Positions 33,262 through 38,140 of a stretch of 44,529 bases of DNA are shown here, piece by piece. The stretch is taken from positions 1-44,529 of the forward strand of contig JAFGBN010000098.1 in NCBI GenBank assembly GCA_016933195.1, read 5' to 3'. How positions within the stretch are numbered: position 1 is the first letter of the stretch; the number at the start of each line of letters is the position of its first letter. This DNA comes from Dehalococcoidia bacterium. GTDB lineage: Bacteria; Chloroflexota; Dehalococcoidia; GIF9; AB-539-J10. The position numbers were made by a program, and so were the translations under genes. The notes under the pieces are model-generated. The model worked only from the letters and a program-made list of their open reading frames with translations, was not told the DNA's origin and did no database searches.

Positions 33262-33456
33262 ATGCCCACATACGAGTTTTGGTGTCCAAAGTGTGGTAAG
33301 GAGTTTGAGGTCAAAAGACCGATAGCTGATTTCGACAAACCTGCTCTGTGTCCCGATTGTGACACCCAGGGAGAGAAATTGGTGTCAACTTTTGCCTCAA
33401 AAACTGGCGACTCCTTGCAAGTGCCGGCAAAGACACCTTTCAGAATGAAAGGATGA
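33262..33456 (+). CDS. FmdB-type zinc ribbon protein
   Basis: MPTYEFWCPKCGKEFEVKRPIADFDKPALCPDCDTQGEKLVSTFAS; RBS GGAGGTGATGAA. Confidence 0.88.
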   Translation: MPTYEFWCPKCGKEFEVKRPIADFDKPALCPDCDTQGEKLVSTFASKTGDSLQVPAKTPFRMKG

Positions 33457-33581
33457 ACAGCAAATCCCCAAAATGGCAGCACCCGGGTGGTAAGCTTCGG
33501 GAACTGGGCGCAGAAGCATGGTGCGATACTGGGTTCCTTTGCATCCTCGACTCCAAAGTTCGCCAGCGCCTCCTCCACCAA

Positions 33582-33672
33582 CTCTGGCAAGCAGTTATGG
33601 GATGAAAATAATGTGGATAAAGCCAGAGATGAATTATAAGAAAATTAAATGTAACTGCGGATGATAAAACTA
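33582..33672 (+). repeat. Dispersed element, copy 1
   Basis: CTCTGGC(33582-33588)...AATGTGGATAAAGCCAGAGATGAATTATAAGAAAATTAAATGTAACTGCGGATGATAAAA; similar to copies at ~34.6 and ~35.9 kb. Confidence 0.75.
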
Positions 33673-33810
33673 ACTCCGTAACATCGCCAGATTGGACTTG
33701 ACAAAATTAGTATTTGTGTTAAATTTACTGTAATGAATGACTCCTGCTGTTCCCACAACAGGAGTTATTGAATTCCCTTTGTTGTGCTGCCGATAAGGGG
33801 AACTGAAATC

Positions 33811-33836
33811 ACAAGCCCCGCTTTAAAGCGGGGCTT
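33811..33836. terminator. Perfect palindrome, probable intrinsic terminator
   Basis: CAAGCCCCGCTTTAAAGCGGGGCTTG, a perfect 13-bp inverted repeat; on the + strand followed by TTCTT. The NYN stop codon TAA lies at its centre. Confidence 0.75.
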
Positions 33837-34422
33837 GTTCTTCTAAAGGCGTTTCAAACAGGCAGTCCGTAAGATATTCCTCTGTTAAGGGAATCCGCTT
33901 GTCCGCTGCTTCCCTGAGCGTCTTCGCCCAGCTTTTCCCAGGCACACACGCATTCTCTACTTTTTTGTTCGTCTGTTCACGAATATAGTCAACCGCTTCT
34001 GCCAAGTCGCTATCACCAGAGACCAGAATAGCAGTATCATAAGCACCTCTCACTGCCAGCGTAACCATGTCCACTGCGATTCGCGCATCCACGCCCTTCT
34101 GCGTATAATCATTATACTCAAATGATTCCTTGCATTTGGGGCATTCGACTGTATGTCTCCTGGGCACGATTCTTCCACGCCGAATCTGGAGATTTTCAAC
34201 CCAGCCCAACTTGTCAAGAAATCGCTGGTGCGCCTTGCCCATGGATGAGTTAGGGCGAGGACTGGGAGTAGTGTAATAATAGGCCCGCACCAGGTGGCGC
34301 TCTGCAACCAGCTTCTTAACCAAGCTATCTATATTTACAGATTTCTGCAGATTGAGTCCAAATTTTACCCCAGCATAAAGATTCCCACCATCTATGAATA
34401 CCATAACACGCTCGTTCTCCAC
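33823..34422 (-). CDS. NYN (LabA/DUF88-like, PIN-fold) domain protein with a CPKC motif
   Basis: RVMVFIDGGNLYAGVKFGL ... QKGVDARIAVDMVTLAVRGAYDTAILVSGDSDLAEAVDYIRE. Confidence 0.93.
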   Translation of the reverse strand: MENERVMVFIDGGNLYAGVKFGLNLQKSVNIDSLVKKLVAERHLVRAYYYTTPSPRPNSSMGKAHQRFLDKLGWVENLQIRRGRIVPRRHTVECPKCKESFEYNDYTQKGVDARIAVDMVTLAVRGAYDTAILVSGDSDLAEAVDYIREQTNKKVENACVPGKSWAKTLREAADKRIPLTEEYLTDCLFETPLEEQAPL

Positions 34423-34535
34423 AGTTTAAAACCTCCTGCTTGCTAATCTTAACCACACTTTTACATAAGGAAAAGCCACGAAAAGCCATCCTCCAACTGA
34501 TTCTACAACATTGTCCAGAGCAAAGATAGATACCG

Positions 34536-34653
34536 TAGGCAGAAACAGGCCTTTATACAACTGGGAATAGAGTCTCTGCAAGGAAACCCTAGCAATGAGG
34601 GCAAAGCCAAGGGTGGACTACGAGAAGATTAAATGTGACTGTGTGTGCTAAAA
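34536..34653 (+). repeat. Dispersed element, copy 2
   Basis: GGCAGAAACAGGCCTTTATACAAC...CTGCAAGGAAACCCTAGCAATGAGGGCAAAGCCAAGGGTGGACTACGAGAAGATTAAATGTGACTGTGTGTGCTAAAA; aligned by eye with copy 3. Confidence 0.85.
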
Positions 34654-34862
34654 TCTAGCGAGAAGGGTTTTTGCCAAATTGACGAAGAAGTTCTTCTATC
34701 AGGGCATCTTTTCCCTGTATAATCATGCTTCAACTCGGCGATAGCTTCCCCCCAAAGTGATTTGGCCCGGAAGTAGTCGAGCTTGCTTGCACGGACAGAG
34801 TGAATGCAGTCAGATTGCGCCGAATCCATGATTAGTATTAGTAGAAAGGACTCTTAGCAGCG

Positions 34863-35849
34863 TTGTTCGAGGAAATATTACCAAACCTCTATAGAATTGA
34901 GGTCCCCCTCCCCAGAAGTCCCCTGAAGGCCCTTAACTCTTATGTAGTAAAAGGGGCTCAGCGGTCTTTAATTATCGATACTGGATGGAACCGCGAGGAC
35001 TGTATGAGAGCGTTAACTTCTGGCTTAACGGAATGCGGTGTGAATTTGCAGGAAGCTGATTTTTTCATCACGCATATGCATGCAGACCACTCAGGTTTAG
35101 TGTCAAGTCTCGCCGCAGATACAGCAAAGATTTACTTCGGTCGGGCGGATGCGGCAATTATTAACTCTAATACGCCGGGGCCTTGGGAAAGACAGACCGA
35201 TTTTGCCCGTAAACATGGCTTTCCCGAGGATGAACTCGCGCTGGCTATCAGAAATCACCCGGGTCGCAGGTATAGCCCAGCGGCCCGCCTGGACTTCCAT
35301 ATCCTGAAAGAAGATGACACAGTGAGCATGGGGGATTACTTATTTAGATGTGTTGAAACCCCGGGACATACCGAGGGCCATTTGTGTCTTTACGAACCCA
35401 GCAAGAAGATACTCATAGCTGGAGACCATGTTCTCGGTGATATAACCCCCAATATCTCACTTTGGTCCGATGAGTGGAATCCTCTGAAGGAATATCTGAT
35501 GAGCCTGGACAAAGTTTACGATTTGAATGTTGAACTTGTGCTACCTGGCCATAGGAGCATTCTTAAAAATCACCGGGAGAGAATTGGAGAGTTGCGGCGT
35601 CATCACCAACTGAGGCTTGATGAGATTATCTCTATCCTTGAAAAGGGCAGGCAAAACGCTTCCCAGATAGCATCGCAAATGACCTGGGATGTAACCTACA
35701 AATCGTGGGATATGTTTCCCCCGTCGCAAAAGTGGTTTGCTTTCGGAGAGGCTATAGCTCACCTGAAATTACTGGAGGAGGAGGGAAAGGTAGCTAAGGA
35801 GATAGGGGGGCGAGAAGTAGTATTTTTCGACAGGCCGTCAGGTGATTGA
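34863..35849 (+). CDS. MBL-fold metallo-hydrolase (TTG start)
   Basis: SLIIDTGWNREDC; FFITHMHADHSGLV; ETPGHTEGHLCLYEP; LIAGDHVLGDITP; VLPGHR. Confidence 0.93.
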   Translation: MFEEILPNLYRIEVPLPRSPLKALNSYVVKGAQRSLIIDTGWNREDCMRALTSGLTECGVNLQEADFFITHMHADHSGLVSSLAADTAKIYFGRADAAIINSNTPGPWERQTDFARKHGFPEDELALAIRNHPGRRYSPAARLDFHILKEDDTVSMGDYLFRCVETPGHTEGHLCLYEPSKKILIAGDHVLGDITPNISLWSDEWNPLKEYLMSLDKVYDLNVELVLPGHRSILKNHRERIGELRRHHQLRLDEIISILEKGRQNASQIASQMTWDVTYKSWDMFPPSQKWFAFGEAIAHLKLLEEEGKVAKEIGGREVVFFDRPSGD

Positions 35850-35861
35850 AGCAAAAAAGAG

Positions 35862-35984
35862 CTGTGGGTGGAAGCAGCCTTTATACGAGTGAGGATGGAA
35901 TTTCCTTTGCAAGAAAATCCTGGCAATGTGGGCAAAGCCAGGGATGGCTTATGAGGGGATTAAATGTGACTGTGTGTGGTAAGA
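35862..35984 (+). repeat. Dispersed element, copy 3
   Basis: GTGGGTGGAAGCAGCCTTTATACGAG...TTTGCAAGAAAATCCTGGCAATGTGGGCAAAGCCAGGGATGGCTTATGAGGGGATTAAATGTGACTGTGTGTGGTAAGA. Confidence 0.85.
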
Positions 35985-36093: not shown

Positions 36094-36486
36094 CTAGGAA
36101 GTCAAGGCCTTTTTCAGCTTTGCTACGAGGTCTTCTCGTGGCGGCGAAAAAACTTCGATGGCCTTGAATCCCTTATCCGAAATGTAGCTTCCATGCTCTA
36201 CATTTGAGGGTATAGTAATAACGTCACCCTTCTTAAGTGGATACAACTTGCCGTCCATTATCTGGTCGCACCCGCCATCCAGGACTATTAGAATCTGTTC
36301 CGCTTCATGGTGGTGGGTAGGGAAGTATGTATTGGGCTCAGTAGTGACAAAACTGAGTGTCATGTTTACAGCGGACACAAGGTGGCTGTTTGAACCGGGA
36401 GCTAATTCTACAAGGGGAACATCAGAGTAGTGGACAACTCGTTTACTGAATTCCTCTTTGCTGGCATATGGTTCTTTCTTTTCCAT
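36094..36486 (-). CDS. Small cupin-domain protein (paralog 1)
   Basis: MEKKEPYASKEEF...FPTHHHEAEQILIVLDGGCDQIMDGKLYPLKKGDVITIPSNVEHG. Confidence 0.92.
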   Translation of the reverse strand: MEKKEPYASKEEFSKRVVHYSDVPLVELAPGSNSHLVSAVNMTLSFVTTEPNTYFPTHHHEAEQILIVLDGGCDQIMDGKLYPLKKGDVITIPSNVEHGSYISDKGFKAIEVFSPPREDLVAKLKKALTS

Positions 36487-36654
36487 TGAACTCCTCCTCT
36501 TCAATTATACTTACTAATCCGCGCCAACAGGATGTAGATGGCCCATTCGAATGTAACAACATTCCCGAGTAAAATCAAAAATTTTCACTCGCTCAGGTGA
36601 TCAGGCAAGTAGCGCCTTCTACGTCTCTAGCTCCCCGGTTATACGAACATCAGG

Positions 36655-37047
36655 CTAGGAGGCCAAGGCCTTTTTTAGCCTTGCTGCGAGGTCTTCTCGT
36701 GCTGGCGAAAAAATTTCGATGGCTTTGAGGCCTTTATCATAAACATAGTCTCCATGCGGTACATTTGAAGGTATAATGAGAACGTCACCTTTTTTAAGTG
36801 GATATAACTTCCCATCCACTATCTGGTCGCACTCGCCGTCCAGTACTATCACAATCTGTTCCGCTTCATGGTGGTGAGGGGGAAAGTGCTTATTGGGGTC
36901 GATAGTGATGAAACTGACCGTCATGTTTACCGCAGACACAAGGTGACTGTTTGAACCGGGAGCCATTTCTACAATGGGAACATCGGGGTAGTGGACAACC
37001 CGTTGATTGAATTCCTCCTTGCTGGCATATGGCTCTTTCTTTTCCAT
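36655..37047 (-). CDS. Small cupin-domain protein (paralog 2)
   Basis: MEKKEPYASKEEF...FPPHHHEAEQIVIVLDGECDQIVDGKLYPLKKGDVLIIPSNVPHG; 130 aa, ungapped alignment to paralog 1 with about 27 differences counted by eye. Confidence 0.92.
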   Translation of the reverse strand: MEKKEPYASKEEFNQRVVHYPDVPIVEMAPGSNSHLVSAVNMTVSFITIDPNKHFPPHHHEAEQIVIVLDGECDQIVDGKLYPLKKGDVLIIPSNVPHGDYVYDKGLKAIEIFSPAREDLAARLKKALAS

Positions 37048-37273
37048 TGAAATTATTCCTCCTTAATTACGTTTCAGTTCCGCGCGAATAAGTTACATAT
37101 AGCTGGTTTGAATTTAACAGCATTAAACAGCAAAGTCAACTCTTTGTACCGGCTCACGCGACGTGTGTTCCCATTACCTGTAATTGCAAGGCACAAAGCT
37201 TTGAAGTAATATTCTATTTTATTTCGTTGATATCATAATCGCTTGCAAAACTAAGGACGGAGGAAAGAATTTG

Positions 37274-38140
37274 ATGTCCACAGCTGAAATAGGAATAATC
37301 GGGGGCAGCGGGCTTTACAAGATAGAAGGCATGACTGAGATGGAAGAGGTGAAGCTAAGCACGCCTTTTGGCGAACCCAGCGATGCTATTATTTTGGGCG
37401 AACTTGAAGGGGTAAGTGTTGCTTTTCTTCCCAGGCATGGTAAGGGGCACCACATCAGTCCTGGAGAACTGCCGGTTAAGGCTAATATCTATGCCTTGAA
37501 ATCTCTGGGGGTGGAAAGGATTATCTCGGTGAGTGCTGTGGGCAGCCTCAAGGAAGAAATCCAGCCTATGGATTTGGTCATTCCTGACCAGCTCATTGAT
37601 TGCACTAATGGCAGGGAGAGTACCTTCTTCAGTGATGGGATAGTGGCGCACATTGCCTTTGCCGAACCTTTCTGCCCCGTGTTGAGCCAAATTCTATTTG
37701 AGGCAGCCGATAAGGCAGGTGCCAAGGTACATAGAGGCGGTGTTTATCTGGCTATGGAAGGGCCGCAATTTTGCACCAAAGCTCAGTCACAGCTTTACCG
37801 TTCCTGGGGCGCCGATATCATTGGAATGACTGCTTTGCCTGAGGCTAAACTGGCGAGAGAAGCCGAAATGTGCTATGCCACGCTCGCCGTTGTCACCGAT
37901 TATGATTGCTGGCATCTGGACTATGAACCAGTGACTACAGAGATGATTCTAACCACTCTACAGAAAGGCATTGATACTGCCAAGAGAATCCTGAAAAGGA
38001 TAATTCCTCTTATCCCCTCCAAGCGGGACTGCGCTTGTGCCACCGCCCTTAAGAATGCTATTGTTACCTCGCCGAAATATATACCAGACAGAGCAAAAAA
38101 GGATTTGGATTTACTTATTGGGAAATACCTGGACAGATAG
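37274..38140 (+). CDS. mtnP: S-methyl-5'-thioadenosine phosphorylase family protein
   Basis: IGIIGGSGLYKIEGM; FLPRHGKGHHISPGELPVKANIYALKSLGVERIISVSAVGSL; YLAMEGPQFCTKAQSQLYRSWGADIIGMTALPEAKLAREAEMCYA. Confidence 0.95.
   Translation: MSTAEIGIIGGSGLYKIEGMTEMEEVKLSTPFGEPSDAIILGELEGVSVAFLPRHGKGHHISPGELPVKANIYALKSLGVERIISVSAVGSLKEEIQPMDLVIPDQLIDCTNGRESTFFSDGIVAHIAFAEPFCPVLSQILFEAADKAGAKVHRGGVYLAMEGPQFCTKAQSQLYRSWGADIIGMTALPEAKLAREAEMCYATLAVVTDYDCWHLDYEPVTTEMILTTLQKGIDTAKRILKRIIPLIPSKRDCACATALKNAIVTSPKYIPDRAKKDLDLLIGKYLDR

Follow-up and report, generated by a model that had tools for sequence, protein, structure and literature searches.

Worn 3' ends of a radical-SAM gene between small modules in Dehalococcoidia

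The window, a 44,529-nucleotide stretch of DNA, holds three copies of a repeat, each of which, judged by homology, is a worn remnant of a lost radical-SAM (rSAM) defence gene, namely its final 18 codons and stop (in many cases ~28 codons). In relatives, near-perfect copies of the same 57-bp tail, in many cases lacking the rest of the gene, occur at a single locus per genome between small modules of shuffled adjacency; homology blocks run from tail to tail, the tail has no detectable structure, and no recombinase is consistently linked to it. This layout is well supported; from it we infer mechanism and direction of events, and we hold, with little more than even confidence, that the gene tails are seams for module exchange via short shared homology rather than a dedicated recombinase. 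A visible, repeated seam shared across many genera offers a concrete substrate for testing how small modules enter defence islands and replace one another with no harm to neighbouring genes.

The repeat family in the window

A repeat search of the window identified a family of three direct repeats on the + strand (33590-33667, 34574-34651 and 35905-35982), with copy 1 and copy 3 showing 62% and 83% identity to copy 2, respectively, and a second block (34549-34576 and 35877-35904, 75%) common to copies 2 and 3 only. With copy 3 as the query, a search of the whole genome from which the window comes (G000) recovered copy 2 at E 7e-20, copy 1 fell below that threshold, and no copies were found beyond the three in the window. 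All three match a peptide-level pattern for which there were no control hits, and one reading frame is common to them (MWIKPEMNYKKIKCNCG*, MRAKPRVDYEKIKCDCVC* and MWAKPGMAYEGIKCDCVW*, the asterisk marking the stop). The repeat search and the peptide-level pattern thus confirm the three related elements described in a sequence-only reading of this DNA, which missed the point that all of them are coding in one shared frame. The locus comprises the following features:

33262-33456, + strand: zinc-ribbon (FmdB-like) gene (Pfam Zn_ribbon_8, 7e-13), whose stop overlaps the ATG of the next mini-ORF
33453-33605, + strand: in-frame fusion mini-ORF of 50 aa, RadC-like head (~25 codons) plus M tail, translation MNSKSPKWQHPGGKLRELGAEAWCDTGFLCILDSKVRQRLLHQLWQAVMG*
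33542-33605, + strand: M-tail, 3' end (~20 codons and the stop) of the 1161-aa type IIG R-M gene seen in relatives (89% over 64 bp, E 3e-18)
33602-33664, + strand: in-frame mini-ORF of 20 aa, start codon at the tcmP position (+3 codons) plus rSAM tail, translation MKIMWIKPEMNYKKIKCNCG*
33611-33664, + strand: repeat copy 1, rSAM tail (R-tail), decayed, within repeat unit 33590-33667
33823-34422, - strand: NYN-domain gene between tails 1 and 2 (Pfam NYN, 6.7e-24)
34574-34651, + strand: repeat copy 2, R-tail, decayed, coding for LCKETLAMRAKPRVDYEKIKCDCVC*, with weaker similarity to copy 3 upstream to 34549
34863-35849, + strand: MBL-fold hydrolase gene between tails 2 and 3 (Pfam Lactamase_B, 1.2e-15)
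35905-35982, + strand: repeat copy 3, R-tail, decayed, coding for LCKKILAMWAKPGMAYEGIKCDCVW*, with similarity to copy 2 upstream to 35877
37271-38140, + strand: phosphorylase-superfamily gene, MTA-phosphorylase-like (Pfam PNP_UDP_1, 6.7e-48)

The Pfam matches uphold the names that the NYN and MBL genes had been given from the sequence alone. The head of the 50-aa mini-ORF (33453-33549) matches L145, L146 and L055, and its tail (33542-33605) matches M genes. The 20-aa mini-ORF begins in an ATGA overlap with the preceding stop, a junction that recurs in L059. These two overlapping in-frame fusions suggest that the RadC-like/M/tcmP/rSAM operon of relatives has been reduced to its ends; in the window, this operon, with its type IIG R-M gene, apparently collapsed into two mini-ORFs ahead of NYN and MBL. 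The MTA-phosphorylase-like gene is a conserved right flank in many relatives (matches in G003, G011, G014, G039, G057 and G080).

Relative to the nearest authentic tails, which serve as the reference for codon statistics and are not true ancestors, the window copies carry 10 synonymous and 20 non-synonymous changes (neutral synonymous fraction, 0.21). All three carry a CCA codon (L to P) that is otherwise unseen, indicating that the copies derive from one another or were homogenised. There is no remaining match to the rSAM protein in G000, where only the tail in the window is left, and the array of this genome, its operon bodies gone and its tails decaying, is probably an inert relic. The NYN gene is oriented against the tails, which is not the case for the toxin-antitoxin modules of relatives, and an MBL gene with 76% identity (DNA match) is found in G014 between Phd-PIN and the MTA-phosphorylase-like gene (MTAP), without flanking tails. 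A perfect 14-bp inverted repeat at 33811-33838 (ACAAGCCCCGCTTT/AAAGCGGGGCTTGT) spans the 3' end of the NYN gene and is terminator-like. Beside the array, tandem cupin genes (36094-36504 and 36655-37047; 80% DNA identity over 510 bp) represent an independent tandem duplication.

Structure tests and the identity of the parent gene

The sequence-only reading had proposed stems kept by selection on pairing. The arms are indeed complementary in the three window copies, but the pairing is no better than in shuffles: the proposed stem pairs in 76.0% of the cells compared to 77.1% after shuffling, and its covariation is 0.205 vs. 0.226, so that no significant covariation was found, a result that the reading itself had named as evidence against a structure. 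For nearly all tails, both strands gave fold z-scores close to zero; those of the bottom strand lie between -2.0 and 1.6 (20 tails), which is not the behaviour of an attC hairpin. The tails contain no inverted repeats above shuffles and no inverted-repeat core, and the tail has no match in Rfam. The apparent compensatory pairs arise because the arms are codons of the tail and of its upstream ETLA codons. On this alignment, we therefore practically discount a structured RNA or an attC-like folded site, for which the complementary arms remain the only favourable observation; read in one genome alone, the end of a coding gene can pass for a structured repeat. The suggestion of a dispersed, non-autonomous mobile element likewise failed, given one locus per genome, and a transposon or MITE was rejected on this count and on the lack of an inverted repeat above shuffles.

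Among 393 genomes of the class, a degenerate-codon search identified the pattern in 18, compared to 0 hits for the reversed control; among the matches with 3 mismatches, one or two (G353, G117) are probably due to chance. In several genomes, the pattern is the C-terminus of an intact radical-SAM protein of ~320 aa with an SPL-like domain (PF20903), and the gene ahead of the intact rSAM gene encodes TcmP (TIGR04474, 3.7e-61), in the order tcmP, then rSAM, that is seen in relatives. The consensus of the rSAM tail is MWAKLGMDYKKIKCNCVW, and outside the window it is MW(A/D/E)KLGMDYKxIKCNCxx*. LCKE...KCNC is presumably the three-Cys motif of the protein's name. The assignment to the 3' end of rSAM draws on homology to the C-terminus of the intact gene and on identity by position. 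Intact rSAM genes were identified in 5 of the 84 genomes of the order searched (G003, G026, G005, G057 and G080), all genomes being MAGs, so that the absence of a gene is uncertain. The pair of radical SAM and TcmP, the three-Cys-motif partner, is a described one (TIGR04474; PADLOC candidate PDC-M30A), and the rSAM genes of relatives end in the same tail, whereas the window keeps the tail only. Because the window copies are decayed in-frame ends of rSAM, the window turns out to hold what the sequence-only reading had listed as a fatal alternative, namely, decayed ends of one protein-coding gene. A PqqA-like RiPP precursor, suggested by MWxKP in the window copies, was also rejected, given that relatives have MWxKL and that the peptide is the large rSAM gene's own C-terminus; a search for a RiPP precursor or other rSAM substrate yielded no Pfam match and at best 10.4 bits in NCBIfam (cut-off, 42).

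Orphan tails and module arrays in related genomes

Absence of further copies in the genome or in relatives had been named as another ground for dropping the repeat, but further copies are abundant in relatives. About 12 of the 84 genomes of the order searched carry a tail without an adjoining body, always at one locus per genome; these genomes are fragmented MAGs and the stubs were found partly via tail-based queries, so that shorter remnants would be missed. The mean identity of orphan tails to authentic genes is 0.83-0.95 at positions 0 to 57, compared to 0.34-0.48 upstream (bins from -60 to -15) and over the first 15 bases beyond the stop, whereas authentic rSAM genes compared with each other reach 0.69-0.92 upstream of the tail. 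The orphans thus resemble authentic genes closely only between about -5 and the stop codon, which defines a unit of about 57-75 bp that ends exactly at the stop. The 5' boundaries of the tails vary from about -35 to +6, with a retained length of about 45-95 bp, and longer rSAM fragments are uncommon, with examples in G072 and, as a weak match, G030 of the order searched and in G101 outside it. The same tail, together with the element nc110 described below, is present in L077, from a MAG labelled Sedimentisphaerales (Planctomycetes), by transfer or mis-binning.

With 46 synonymous and 38 non-synonymous differences (neutral synonymous fraction, 0.21), the orphan tails outside the window look protein-constrained by their codon pattern. 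Such synonymous-biased divergence, the preservation of frame and stop, and the in-frame mini-ORFs of the window with their ATGA overlap would fit a functional micropeptide of ~18-25 aa, for example, a free three-Cys metal-binding tail. However, 5 orphans have lost their start codon, no protein family matches, and the window copies are decaying, which makes a micropeptide very improbable.

In relatives, the tails separate the toxin-antitoxin modules HicBA, Phd-PIN and DUF433/DUF5615 (Pfam) in changing order, as in these three arrays:

G003: rSAM-tail / HicBA / tail / Phd-PIN / tail / DUF433 + second HicBA / MTAP-like gene
G074: tail / HicBA / tail / DUF433-DUF5615 / tail
G017: methylase / tail / Phd-PIN / tail / HicBA / tail remnant

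Other module combinations occur in G033, G026, G011, G014, G006 and G030. At 22 tails, we counted 20 distinct neighbour pairs, which are not phylogenetically independent. BLAST homology blocks start within one tail and stop within the following one, and their neighbours vary from genome to genome; the HicBA1 block, for example, has different neighbours in G003, G026, G074 and (from inside HicBA1) G011. In the congeneric genomes G017 and G026, the common left flank ends at the stop codon of M (methylase), the common right flank begins inside a tail remnant, and everything between differs. The modules are mostly 0.2-1.3 kb long, and a short non-coding element, nc110, acts as a further module, once per genome. 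The cassette-like layout suspected in the sequence-only reading is therefore borne out, the same repeat parting different small modules in shuffled order in relatives.

The nc110 element is conserved, ~110 bp long, contains an ACTAGC...GCTAGT palindrome and is usually found directly behind a tail (L055:7935-8020, L061, L054, L145, L146 and L077). A DUF3800-VII RNA (RF02967, 42.3 bits) lies within a tail array at L055:8686-8781 (- strand), and L061 (Pfam) and L057 (by eye) have DUF3800-like genes next to tails.

Module exchange, attachment sites and gene stubs

Under the reading that we favour, small modules (mostly toxin-antitoxin operons; NYN and MBL in the window) would have been joined directly behind the rSAM stop codon and exchanged with one another at the tails, so that each module junction would carry one copy of the tail; gene bodies would come and go while the tails stay. 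The exchange would proceed by recombination within the short shared tails, by RecA or by annealing at ~60-75 bp, and the other side of the module would be closed by illegitimate joining, with no dedicated integrase. Several points weigh against exchange by short homology. The protein constraint of orphan tails is not predicted for a pure DNA seam, unless the tails are refreshed from intact genes; a stretch of 57 bp with 80-90% identity is a poor RecA substrate; and random illegitimate joins should leave a wider spread of retained lengths than the one seen. Moreover, no crossover position emerged when tails were grouped by downstream module (p = 0.067 for the 3' half of the tail, all other groupings being non-significant), so that a trans-acting site-specific system keeps a small probability.

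Integrative elements insert at tRNA or ssrA 3' ends. In a site-specific system of the array, the last ~57 bp of rSAM would be the attachment site of a trans-acting recombinase, with circular module-plus-tail cassettes inserting at the rSAM 3' end and rebuilding its C-terminus. The sharp unit from about -5 to +57, the presence of one module per tail in shuffled order, the single locus and the rSAM reading frame kept by the tails argue for such a system, as do tandem islands at a 20-bp ssrA-end repeat known in Dehalococcoides (PMC3146451). Nevertheless, we consider it unlikely, given the variable 5' boundaries, the lack of an inverted-repeat core and of a hairpin on either strand, and the survey of recombinases. 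The integron integrase (TIGR02249) exceeded the cut-off in 0 of the 14 array genomes, in agreement with the sequence-only reading, which had seen neither an integrase nor attC; no tyrosine recombinase was found within the fetched array segments; and the large serine recombinase (PF07508) was present in 3 of the 14 array genomes, being on the array contig only in G028, where one lies ~11 kb from the array. Thus, no recombinase family is consistently linked to the array. The best match to dif, for which only the E. coli and B. subtilis sequences were tried, was no better than shuffled. A phage or plasmid origin was rejected, two queries giving no DNA match and viral contigs containing no tail. 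Quite unlikely, too, in our estimate, is the specific claim of a new cassette system in Dehalococcoidia in which the 3'-terminal ~57 coding bases of a defence gene are a true recombination site for a trans-acting recombinase; if true, a cell would collect toxin-antitoxin and defence modules behind a gene without ever breaking that gene.

The nearest precedent is found in the same class, in the ssrA islands of Dehalococcoides, which are kilobases long, stand in tandem, are bounded by a 20-bp repeat of the 3' end of ssrA (tmRNA) and in many cases carry the serine recombinase DsiB (PMC3146451). Here, too, direct repeats of a gene's 3' end bound tandem modules at one place, but the repeated end belongs to a protein gene and measures ~57 bp, the modules are mostly 0.2-1.3 kb long and no recombinase is consistently linked. 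Like integron arrays and CALINs, the tail arrays hold short, interchangeable modules, often toxin-antitoxin, shuffled between a repeated sequence (seen in the tail-to-tail blocks and neighbour pairs); unlike them, they show no IntI over the cut-off and no attC hairpin, and the repeat is a coding gene end. The plasmid dif (pdif) modules of Acinetobacter, shuffled between replicons (PMC13141974), similarly place shuffled toxin-antitoxin modules between short repeated sites, but the tail has no XerC/XerD-like 28-bp site and lies on chromosomal MAG contigs, not plasmids. In phage mosaics, short conserved boundary sequences at gene junctions have been proposed to promote module exchange (PMC3029335); the short homology at gene junctions is shared, whereas the seam described here comes from a single specific gene, whose end recurs several times per array. 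In a literature search of incomplete coverage, we found no description of arrays bounded by the tail of a protein gene.

Alternatively, the tails could be passive stubs, left when deletions removed the gene bodies but spared the terminal 60-100 bp as promoter or translation start of the downstream gene, with tandem tails resulting from repeated gain of tcmP-rSAM-TA units followed by body loss. The M-tail overlaps the tcmP start codon, a DUF433 module starts ~50 bp behind a tail with promoter-like sites inside it, and the window copies resemble decaying relics, all consistent with stubs. Other genes have left stubs as well: the last 64 bp of M, the 1161-aa type IIG restriction-methylase gene, are orphaned in the window, G003, G005, G033 and G006; G006 contains a 99-bp stub of another IIG methylase; and G165 contains a 91-bp stub (N-tail) of the 1076-aa 'N' gene. 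These 3' ends of 60-100 bp indicate that gene-end stubs are a wider feature of the islands. On the other hand, Phd-PIN has kept its tail although its own promoter-like pair (TTGTAA/TTGCAA-17/18-TATAAT) lies entirely beyond that tail; within an array, each of the different modules stands behind a tail; and identity ends exactly at the stop codon. A spared promoter thus fits the M-tail and tcmP and perhaps DUF433, but not Phd-PIN, and we regard passive stubs as a doubtful explanation of the arrays.

Besides the stubs, a pAgo-like gene and TcmP, the PDC-M30A candidate, are found in the islands. The former, a class II pAgo-like gene at L057:3791-6196 (PADLOC pAgo_II, E 5e-156), lies just upstream of a tail in G030.
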